The notes below the pieces were generated by a model. That model saw only the letters and a program-made list of their open reading frames with translations, had not been told where the DNA came from and did not search any database. Made by a program: the position numbers and the translations under genes. Positions 19,356-22,727 of a stretch of DNA of 64,000 nucleotides are shown here, piece by piece. Origin of the DNA: Haladaptatus pallidirubidus (lineage in GTDB: Archaea > Halobacteriota > Halobacteria > Halobacteriales > Haladaptataceae); assembly GCF_020700235.1 (NCBI RefSeq), contig NZ_CP085301.1:1-64000 (forward strand). The letters are read 5' to 3'. Position 1 is the first letter of the stretch, and each line of letters starts with the position of its first letter.

Positions 19356-19493
19356 GCTCTCGTTTCGTGTCGTGGTAAAATAACACCGTCGCTAGACACT
19401 CTCTCACAAATGAAACATATGTCATGAATTCTAAAAAACAATATAATAAAATAATGTCGACAGATGCAGTATATATTCTGAATTTAAAATAGA

Positions 19494-19503
19494 AAATTTA
19501 ATA
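19494..19503 (+). promoter_or_regulatory. TATA-like box for the DUF7503-like peptide
   Basis: AAATTTAATA lies about 30 bp before the ATG at 19528, inside an unusually A/T-rich stretch (19390-19515). The spacing fits a leaderless transcript. Confidence 0.45.
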
Positions 19504-19527
19504 TGTTTTCGTATGAAACGGTATTGT

Positions 19528-19662
19528 ATGGCAGAACACGACCTTACCGCGTACCTCGAAGCGAACCCCCGAATGATCGGCGTGCTGTTTACTATCGCGC
19601 TCATACTCTCGCAAGCGGGAAGTGTCGCAGGCGCTTACGCAGTCGGAACCAGCGGCCCGTAA
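19528..19662 (+). CDS. 44-residue membrane peptide, DUF7503-like
   Basis: Microprotein MAEHDLTAYLEANPRMIG followed by a hydrophobic helix (VLFTIALILSQAGSVAGAY) and a short tail ending TSGP. The NPRMIGVLFT pattern fits the haloarchaeal short-membrane-protein family I recall as DUF7503. An in-frame ATG at 19513 is an alternative start. It is convergent with the CHAT gene, 3 bp between stops. The function is unknown; see findings for a possible link to the CHAT protein. Confidence 0.72.
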   Translation: MAEHDLTAYLEANPRMIGVLFTIALILSQAGSVAGAYAVGTSGP

Positions 19663-19665
19663 AAT

Positions 19666-21762
19666 TCACAATCCGGCAACATCAATATCTACACTCCACA
19701 TCAACTGACCATCTATACTAACGGGAACGTTTTCCAAGGCAAGATGGTCTTCAAGCTCGTCCGCTGAGAGCGTCATCGTCGGAAGTGACCCAGACGTGAG
19801 AAACATTTTGTCCGAGGTTTGGGGCTTGATTATCCCGCCGAGTCCGTCCGCCCCGCCGATGTACGTTTTTCGCTCCAGTTCGAATACGTTCCCTTTCGGC
19901 TTGATTTCGAAAAGGAGTGCAACTGCGCTCTCCGTCTGCACCATATCCACACTTCCATCGCCGACGACAATGTACTGCCCGCCGATGAGACTTCGGTCAC
20001 GTGCGATATCCAGTGCTGCCCAGAGTGGAAAGCCGCGATTCAGCAGTCGCACCATCGCTTTTCCGACCCGAACCGCACCGCTGTTTATCACGTCGTCCAG
20101 CGTGACGACGCCACCGACGGCACCCGCGTCGATGAGCGCCATTCCCTGTTCGTACGACTGACAGGCGTTGAGCAAGAACGCTTCGACACCGACCGTATCG
20201 AGCGTCCTCGCATCGAGTATTCCGTCGGCGCATTCGAACCCACTCTCGTCGATGTGTCCGATGTAGTGAAGGAACTGCGTCTCCGCTTCGAGAATCGACC
20301 GAAGCTCCGTGACGGTGAGGTCGTTATGAACCGTCACGTCAAACGGTAGTTCGTCACGCGACCCGTACACCGAATCAGCGAGGTTACGCTCCTCGTCCAT
20401 CTGTTCATCGTTACAGACGACCGCGATGTCGATTTCTCCCGCCGGTGCTCGCTCGAGGCGGTTGCGGAACGCCGCTGCCGTCGCCTTGCTCGCACCGACC
20501 CGAGCGTCCTCACCGACCCACGCCTGTTCCAGCGAATCCTCGGTCGCTGGTCCGACCAGCGACCGAGGATTCGACGGCATCTCCGTCGTACTTCGGGTGG
20601 TGTCCCCGCCTCGGACGAACTCCTTGACCGCCGGAACCTGTACCGCGGATGTTGACACTTCCACCGCTTGCGGCGTTCGGATGACTGCAAGGTCGTCCAC
20701 GAGGAACGGCAGCATTTCGACGTTCTCGACTGTTGGCGCAACGTGCGTCGTCAGCTGCCAGTCCGGAACGAACCCCTCGATACATTCGAATGGCACCGAG
20801 AGGTACGCCTCCAACTGCTCCGCCAGCGAAGCGTGATAGAGCCGTTCGAAGTCGAAATCGACCACGGATTCGACCTGCTGGCGTTCGTGTAAGTCCACGG
20901 GATACAGCCCCTCGGTTCGGGTTACACAATCGAGGAAAAACGCCTGTTTCAGTACGCGCTCTACTTCTCCCTCGAAACCGCGCGCGCTTCGAAGCTGATG
21001 TTCGAACCCGTCAGCGAGGATTCGCGGAACGTTCCCCGGAACCAACTCCGCGCCGAGGTAGTAGGCCAACGGTGCGACCGGAAAAATAAACTCGTACTCC
21101 GGTGGCACTTCGATTTGGATGTCCGCCTCCGCCAGGCGCAAATTGTCCGGTACGTGGAGTTCATCGCCGAGTTCAATCGTCGGTGGGTGACCCCGCAAGG
21201 TCGGGAACGACCGTTCCGGACTCGTCGTCTTCAGTGCGGGTCCGAACGCCGAAATCGCGGCCATCATATCGACCGGGTCGCTGGTTGTCGTCACGGTTCC
21301 CGCCGGGTGCCGATGGGACGACCGGCCACCGACGAACGTCTCGGTTTCCGACCCGAACTCCAAGACGACGCGGTCGAACGATGCGGTGACGCTCAGCTCT
21401 GTTTCGGCGACGACGTACAGTTTGATCGGGGTACAGAGTTCGATGCTGTACGTCCCCGCAGGAAGTTTCTCGCACCCGATTCCCTCCACGCTTGACAGCA
21501 TCGCTCCGTTTCCATCGCGGACGTACACCGCCGCAGGGGCCGAAAGCGTTAGGCGGTCGGTCGAGATAACGACTGCCTCATCCACCGGGAAACAGCACGA
21601 ACGAGGGTCGGTTGCGACTGGTCGAACCGCGTTCGGCGTCCGAAGCGTACACGTCCGACGCTCCATCGCGTCGCGTATCACGATTCCCGCCTCGTTCTCA
21701 CAGGAATCGAACGAAATGGTCACCGGGTAACCTCCAGATTTCGAGAGGTCTGATACCGGCAC
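19666..21762 (-). CDS. CHAT-domain (caspase-like) protein, haloarchaeal
   Basis: A 698-residue protein with a C-terminal CHAT cysteine-protease-like domain (about 440-610). The presumed catalytic dyad is His503 in FLHYIGH and Cys534 in LLNACQSYEQG, followed by GAVGGVVTLDDVINS, the CHAT core order. Residues 1-160 are beta-rich with several cysteines, and the middle (190-400) is a unique haloarchaeal region. No signal peptide or membrane helix is seen, so it is likely cytosolic. CHAT proteases act in bacterial defence and cell-suicide systems (for example Craspase and gasdermin-activating proteases). Here the substrate is unknown. It lies 70 bp downstream of a degenerate MBL-like gene on the same strand. 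Confidence 0.8.
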   Translation of the reverse strand: MPVSDLSKSGGYPVTISFDSCENEAGIVIRDAMERRTCTLRTPNAVRPVATDPRSCCFPVDEAVVISTDRLTLSAPAAVYVRDGNGAMLSSVEGIGCEKLPAGTYSIELCTPIKLYVVAETELSVTASFDRVVLEFGSETETFVGGRSSHRHPAGTVTTTSDPVDMMAAISAFGPALKTTSPERSFPTLRGHPPTIELGDELHVPDNLRLAEADIQIEVPPEYEFIFPVAPLAYYLGAELVPGNVPRILADGFEHQLRSARGFEGEVERVLKQAFFLDCVTRTEGLYPVDLHERQQVESVVDFDFERLYHASLAEQLEAYLSVPFECIEGFVPDWQLTTHVAPTVENVEMLPFLVDDLAVIRTPQAVEVSTSAVQVPAVKEFVRGGDTTRSTTEMPSNPRSLVGPATEDSLEQAWVGEDARVGASKATAAAFRNRLERAPAGEIDIAVVCNDEQMDEERNLADSVYGSRDELPFDVTVHNDLTVTELRSILEAETQFLHYIGHIDESGFECADGILDARTLDTVGVEAFLLNACQSYEQGMALIDAGAVGGVVTLDDVINSGAVRVGKAMVRLLNRGFPLWAALDIARDRSLIGGQYIVVGDGSVDMVQTESAVALLFEIKPKGNVFELERKTYIGGADGLGGIIKPQTSDKMFLTSGSLPTMTLSADELEDHLALENVPVSIDGQLMWSVDIDVAGL

Positions 21763-21832
21763 TCAGAAAGCATATGTGGGGAATATCAATCAAATAGTAA
21801 AAAGCTATCGGCAATTCGGAATACTCGCGCAA

Positions 21833-22507
21833 CTATATCGGTGCAAACCGCCGAACCGTCGAAGCCAACAACGACGGATAGCGACGACGGGAACCGTCGA
21901 GGGCATCGGCGAGTGTCGCCGCAGCGCTGTCGAACACGCCAGCGCCGTGACCGACGAGGATTCGCTCGGGGGTCAGTCCGCGCAGTTCGTCCGGCGGAAG
22001 CAGTCGAACCATCGGGTGAACGCCGAGTCGTTCGCGCTCGGTTCGAAAGTAGTCCACAGTTCCGATTGATTCCGGAACGATGAGAGTACCGGTCGATTCG
22101 TCGTACAATCCAGCCTCCTGCCACGCGGGATTGTCGAACAGCTTCAAAACGCGGAACCCCGTATCGGCCAGCGACGTTTCGAACCGCCGAACCGGAATTC
22201 CGGTGACGCTCCGTCGAACCCACGTCGGGAGGTAGAGCGGGACACCGTGCCGCCGGGCGATTTTCTCCGCATCGCGCATGTGCCGGCCGAGGAGGACGAC
22301 GACGCCCGCAACCTCGCCGTATTCGTCGAGCAAGTCGTCGAGGTCGGGCGCATCGATCGGGTCGATAACCCACACGTCGCCGTCTACTGCGATGGCGTGG
22401 CTTGCCCTCTGCATCGCCTCGTCGGGATAGGCAATCCACCCGACGCCGCCGTCCCATCTGTCGATTTCTTGGAATCCGTTCGAGGATTGGGTTTCTTTGA
22501 GCGGCAT
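21833..22507 (-). CDS. Metallo-beta-lactamase-fold protein with degenerate metal site
   Basis: About 225 residues. The layout is MBL-like: GGVGWIAYPDE, then WVIDPIDAPDLDDLL, then a strand-loop GVVVLLGRHMRDAEKIARRHGVPLYLP where active enzymes carry HxHxDH, and later ILVGHGAGVFDSAA. The usual metal motif is replaced by LGRHMRDA, so hydrolase activity is doubtful. The start at MPLKETQ (22507) is preferred; an upstream ATG at 22534 is possible. It is followed by the CHAT gene on the same strand. Confidence 0.6.
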   Translation of the reverse strand: MPLKETQSSNGFQEIDRWDGGVGWIAYPDEAMQRASHAIAVDGDVWVIDPIDAPDLDDLLDEYGEVAGVVVLLGRHMRDAEKIARRHGVPLYLPTWVRRSVTGIPVRRFETSLADTGFRVLKLFDNPAWQEAGLYDESTGTLIVPESIGTVDYFRTERERLGVHPMVRLLPPDELRGLTPERILVGHGAGVFDSAAATLADALDGSRRRYPSLLASTVRRFAPI

Positions 22508-22727
22508 GTACTGAAATAGTCCCGCATGCGGCATAAATCGACGGGGCGATAGGTTCGAGGGGAGCGTTCGGGTTGGTTCTGCGAACGGTTGATTCGTGGT
22601 GACGATGTCCGTCGTAAACGATTCGCTCGGTACGGTTGCTCGCCGTCGCGGGCGGCCGCTGACGACTGCCAGTGACCGCTAGCGACCGGTGCGACGTTTT
22701 AAGCGCCGTCGCTGTGTATTCCGGTGC

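Follow-up and report, generated by a model that had tools for sequence, protein, structure and literature searches.

A gene for a protease of predicted caspase-like fold and a convergent gene for a small DUF7503 peptide form a real, class-wide module of haloarchaea. The pair was analysed in the window, the whole 64,000-nucleotide stretch of Haladaptatus pallidirubidus DNA, and its occurrence was followed through further haloarchaeal genomes. The explanation favoured here, held with a little less than even confidence, is that the protease would have its own convergent propeptide as a cognate ligand or substrate, by a logic like that of Rap-Phr. In a literature search of partial coverage no mention of DUF7503, DUF7504 or a CHAT domain in haloarchaea was found, and within the literature searched the pair is so far undescribed.

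The features of the locus are as follows.

19481..19505, plus strand: A/T-rich promoter-like stretch of the peptide gene, resembling elements about 25-45 bp before the ATG at most other DUF7503 loci
19528 (ATG) to 19662 (stop), plus strand: DUF7503 (PF24335) partner peptide of 44 aa, MAEHDLTAYLEANPRMIGVLFTIALILSQAGSVAGAYAVGTSGP; an alternative in-frame ATG at 19513 would give a 49-aa peptide
19633..19659, plus strand: C-terminal nonapeptide AYAVGTSGP of the partner peptide, following the (V/A)-x-(A/G) site V33-A34-G35 with a putative exact cleavage point; its GP end is conserved, and it is the counterpart of the unit tandemly repeated in genus g43
19666..21762, minus strand: CHAT/caspase-fold protease gene, 698 aa, GTG start
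20161..20163, minus strand: codon of Cys534, predicted catalytic, in the motif NACQSY, closing strand 526-534
20254..20256, minus strand: codon of His503, predicted catalytic, in the motif HYIGH, closing strand 495-505
21833..22534, minus strand: MBL-like neighbour gene, ending 70 bp before the protease start

On re-checking, the open reading frames, motif residues and distances of the preliminary description held at every coordinate. The stop codons of protease and peptide are indeed 3 bp apart, and the promoter proposed for the peptide gene corresponds to an A/T-rich, promoter-like stretch upstream of it.

Pairing of the protease with DUF7503 across haloarchaea

The 44-aa peptide matched DUF7503 with 68.6 bits (E 3.3e-19, Pfam gathering score 27) and is a member of the family. 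Relatives of the protease were present in 273 of 294 haloarchaeal genomes, and DUF7503 in 49 of the 59 sampled. In these 59 genomes, 71 of 72 DUF7503 genes lay directly 3' of a protease-family gene and convergent with it (33/33 in 30 genomes, 31/32 in 28 further genomes and 7/7 in the window's own genome). Two of the seven loci in the own genome are identical, an apparent segment duplication, and these seven therefore amount to six independent ones. The suggestion that protease and small peptide are a true conserved pair is thus supported, the co-occurrence being near-obligate and far beyond chance. The single displaced DUF7503 gene (L118, G049:C3) lies 1.4 kb from the protease and on the same strand, with a response-regulator/PAS-type gene between the two.

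DUF7503 was found in none of the seven protease-free genomes among the 59 (G001, G007, G014, G017, G021, G036 and G037). G002, G048 and G058, with divergent or fragmentary proteases only, also carried no DUF7503. The chance that all seven protease-free genomes fall among the ten DUF7503-free ones is 120/341,149,446, or about 3.5e-7 by hand calculation, a value that assumes independent genomes and is optimistic given their relatedness. No DUF7503 was detected outside Halobacteria among the other genomes of the phylum that were searched. From stop to stop, protease and peptide are a median 3 bp apart, and the convergent ends overlap by 4 bp in 11 of 55 pairs; since the gap ranges from -21 to 228 bp, the 3' overlap is no conserved feature.

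In the protease tree (midpoint rooting), the peptide is present in 76 of the 79 members of a large clade. At L109, a seeming exception to the pairing, there is a peptide after all, divergent and ending NNGP. The peptide is mostly absent from the paralogues of subfamily B, three of which (L069, L071 and L074) face divergent, leader-like convergent peptides that end STGP and are unmatched by DUF7503. Distant relatives in four genomes of family f19 of the same phylum (L078-L081; g43 and f19 are genus and family labels of the genome set searched) are without such a peptide, and in L081 the catalytic motifs are degenerate. A third subfamily (L063, L064 and L077) keeps the N-terminal part and has no HxxGH/Cys motifs; its members are possibly inactive relatives. 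Three members of the protease family stand in tandem without DUF7503 at L072 (G023:C1), and two tandem DUF7503 genes lie behind one protease at G012:C1:486534-486796.

Predicted fold of the protease and design of the peptide

The Pfam CHAT family (PF12770) matched the 698-aa protease with 11.3 bits (E 0.23), below the gathering score of 24, and gave weak matches in 10 of 20 relatives (best E 5e-4). With matches this weak, a CHAT assignment made from sequence needed a structural test. An AlphaFold model was built on a 20-sequence alignment. It comprises a beta-rich N-terminal domain (about residues 15-160), a mixed or helical middle domain (160-330), a poorly predicted linker (334-442), a caspase-like domain (445-600) and a C-terminal domain (615-698). 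Confidence in the model was moderate, with a mean pLDDT of 63.5 and values of about 54-89 per ten-residue block over residues 481-550, and poor in the linker. In Foldseek searches the top PDB match was human procaspase-3 (E 1e-3, probability 1.00), followed by caspase-4, caspase-11, separase and gingipain; unrelated glucosidases were also among the top matches. His503 and Cys534 close adjacent core strands of the model, the arrangement expected of caspases. Both residues are invariant in the 20-sequence alignment, and the HxxGH motif and the Cys were found in all 94 peptide-linked homologues. The CHAT fold of the preliminary description therefore stands as a caspase-like prediction in which the two key residues end neighbouring strands. 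By fold and invariant His/Cys, the protein is predicted to be a CHAT/clan CD caspase-like protease and would be active as such. Neither TPRs nor any other known peptide-binding domain was detected by Pfam in the protease and its relatives.

The 88 ordinary DUF7503 peptides follow the pattern YLxx(H/N)PRMxGVLFTxxLLLSQAGxVAA, then a variable stretch, then GP. P10 and F17 are invariant, as are G39 and P40 where present, and Q25 is nearly so. The GP end occurs in 72 of the 88; the other 16 end differently, some of them earlier (for example in ANGGGIR or MAGTID). Only one segment is hydrophobic (median hydropathy 1.73 over 19 residues), and V or A at -3 with A or G at -1 resembles a signal-peptidase I site, beyond which there are mostly 7-11 residues. 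The peptide thus reads like a propeptide, with a conserved hydrophobic segment, a (V/A)-x-(A/G) site and a variable end usually closing in GP. Most peptides have no net charge or a negative one in their N-region, which is atypical of a Sec signal, and the leader residues PRM.GVLFT..LLL.QAG are conserved beyond the need of a plain secretion signal. In nearly all congeneric pairs the peptide dN was well below dS, so purifying selection acts on DUF7503 and it is a real protein. Distances of protease and peptide were correlated (Mantel r 0.45, 0/2000), a correlation that may reflect shared phylogeny alone and not co-evolution.

In genus g43, DUF7503 went unmatched in six of the seven sampled species. 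In its convergent place these six encode a soluble peptide that starts MSxxD and continues with 4-13 copies of (T/N)ADGNxxGISGP. In the seventh species (L016) the peptide is an ordinary DUF7503 member; its N-terminus is similar, its gene has a promoter region near-identical to that of the repeat genes, and from this likeness the repeat genes are most likely homologous to DUF7503. Within three of the arrays the differences between repeats were synonymous only (435 to 0, 46 to 0 and 38 to 0, synonymous to nonsynonymous); the first of these has 13 copies, and every pairwise difference among them is synonymous. The other three arrays gave 12 to 6, 178 to 18 and 61 to 30. This dominance of synonymous changes indicates that the core decapeptide DGNxxGISGP is conserved as an amino-acid sequence and is a repeatable unit. 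As read from these arrays, the C-terminal core is the selected unit and the hydrophobic segment is dispensable in those species. The repeats are the strongest single argument that the peptide is a ligand or substrate and does not form pores. A cut of caspase type after Asp would suit TAD|GN in the repeats; as that Asp is absent from ordinary DUF7503 peptides, little weight was attached to this candidate site.

Possible roles of the peptide

In the favoured explanation, the caspase-fold cysteine protease would probably be cytosolic, and the DUF7503 product would start with a hydrophobic leader and have its active part in the last 7-11 residues, often ...(I/V)xGP. This part would be the cognate ligand or substrate, which either binds and controls the protease or is cut out by it, and the two partners would be expressed independently through separate promoters. 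The peptide may activate the protease, inhibit it or be cut by it. Several observations count against this explanation. The leader is over-conserved and the charge of its N-region is unlike that of classical Sec signals, the protease has no peptide-binding domain in Pfam, and 16 of 88 peptides are without the GP end. The repeat version of g43 has no leader, so export could be general only by way of some other route. Were the core exported by the leader, it would also come to lie across the membrane from the protease.

The RRNPP systems are defined by a small Sec-secreted propeptide adjacent (-60 to 400 bp) to a TPR receptor of 250-500 aa (PMC10075063), and Phr propeptides and fungal pheromones are reported to show duplication of the mature peptide, by gene and within the gene (PMC5199041). 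The haloarchaeal pair resembles them in that a small propeptide gene adjoins the one for the presumed partner inside the cell (PMC10075063, PMC5199041), in the hydrophobic leader with a short, presumably active C-terminal part, in the duplication of the core by gene and within the gene, and in the several paralogous pairs per genome. The peptide of 44 aa and the gaps of -21 to 228 bp fall within the RRNPP definition. For Sec secretion, the -3/-1 site is present and the n-region is not basic. The differences are that the genes are archaeal and convergent, that the leader is unusually conserved and that the peptide has a caspase-fold partner of about 700 aa, in which no TPRs were detected. As the receptor, at 698 aa and without a TPR match, departs from the RRNPP type in length and domains, the haloarchaeal pair may work like RRNPP systems and is not a member of them. 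The TPR-CHAT protease Csx29 (Craspase), which is activated by the effector of a type III-E CRISPR system, is with its substrate Csx30 alike in joining a CHAT/caspase-like protease to a dedicated, gene-adjacent protein partner (PMC10028731); it differs in its TPRs, for which the haloarchaeal protease gave no match, and in its large partner protein in place of a 44-aa peptide.

Within the favoured explanation, pheromone-like signalling in archaea is conceivable and rather unlikely as a whole. The leader peptide would release a short C-terminal peptide, multicopy in one genus, and the caspase-fold protease would act as sensor or responder; with it, the gene family still lacking for haloarchaeal caspase-like activity would also be found.

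The core could instead serve as a pseudosubstrate inhibitor or membrane tether, occupying the active site and holding the protease inactive, as securin does separase, until stress releases it; repeats would then raise the valency. This remains a doubtful possibility. Separase-securin is found among the structural matches, selection acts on the sequence of the core, which can also be multiplied, and the core of g43, having no leader, is probably in the cytosol. Against it, a positive residue N-terminal of the hydrophobic segment in ordinary DUF7503 peptides leads to a core predicted outside the cell, and the variable core residues are unlike a conserved pseudosubstrate.

Bacterial gasdermins are encoded with an adjacent protease. 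The preliminary description proposed a pore- or lysis-like effector. As in gasdermin-protease pairs, the protease would then release or activate a small membrane peptide, by which the cell would be perforated or depolarised. The caspase-like fold, the single hydrophobic segment and the small and polar residues (Q, G) conserved inside it would suit such an effector, and the likeness extends to a caspase-like protease standing beside a partner with a hydrophobic segment. The partner here, however, is a 44-aa peptide that has no gasdermin domain and matches DUF7503 only. The effector role was not borne out by the six g43 species, which dropped the hydrophobic segment and kept and multiplied the C-terminal core. 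Defence genes are typically sporadic, and this pair occurs nearly throughout the class. We consider this role improbable. An annotation as a defence system was rejected, as PADLOC gave no meaningful match to the protease or the peptide; a viral origin was likewise rejected, as no relative of the protease was found in viral contigs.

A conserved leader with a less conserved core, present in multiple copies in g43, would also fit a peptide that is made on ribosomes and then modified, its leader being cut off by the protease; this is very improbable, since the recurrent neighbours of the loci include no conserved modification enzyme and the predicted fold of DUF7504 is KaiC-like and not that of a modifying enzyme. 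That the pair acts at the level of transcripts, the short gaps and overlapping 3' ends giving antisense control with a peptide of little importance in itself, is scarcely credible, given the low dN of the peptide, the solely synonymous changes in three g43 arrays, a GP end kept even at the widest gaps and the persistence of the displaced DUF7503 gene.

Neighbouring genes and the caspase activity of haloarchaea

The preliminary description had also included the MBL-like gene in the system, which was not upheld. This family adjoins the protease in Haladaptatus loci only; the gene was rejected as a component and is probably outside the module. Its similarity to metallo-beta-lactamases is itself marginal (Lactamase_B_5, 12.2 bits, E 0.12, below the Pfam cut-off of 28.4), and the protein had no relative among solved structures. 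The recurrent gene immediately upstream of the protease is DUF7504, found at 36 of 88 peptide-linked proteases as against none of 33 without a peptide. The module is thus often one of three genes, protease, peptide and DUF7504 as recurrent upstream partner. DUF7504 is a large family found in all 59 genomes; at the window's own locus it is not directly upstream of the protease, the MBL-like gene taking that place. By sequence, nothing convincing was found for DUF7504 among solved structures, and no Walker A motif was obvious by eye in its alignment. In its model (pLDDT 75) the fold is predicted to be KaiC-like, with KaiC throughout the top 50 Foldseek matches (E 4e-6, TM-scores mostly about 0.3).

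Extracts of Haloferax volcanii were reported in 2012 to have very high, stress-linked caspase-type activity, with cleavage of LEVD, VEID and IETD, and without a gene homologue (PMC3615174). H. volcanii carries DUF7503, as seen in the control line of the genome searches, and from the linkage found here the protease is very probably present there too. The pair may explain this orphan activity, for which the near-universal caspase-fold family provides a concrete candidate gene. The partner peptide is a candidate for a dedicated ligand or substrate whose active part, of about nine residues, is small enough for direct synthesis and testing; if it is exported, the pair would constitute an archaeal peptide-signalling system. 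A context is now assigned to DUF7503 and partly to DUF7504, both unnamed families.

In the own genome of the window, the identical DUF7503 loci (L037 and L038) lie at C1:1585565 and C1:2137414, 551,849 bp apart, and equal-scoring DUF7504 matches at C1:1768127 and 2319976 are separated by the same 551,849 bp. At least about 183 kb of the genome is apparently duplicated, a duplication that is either real or an assembly artefact, and an artefact would fit the contamination estimate of 15%.
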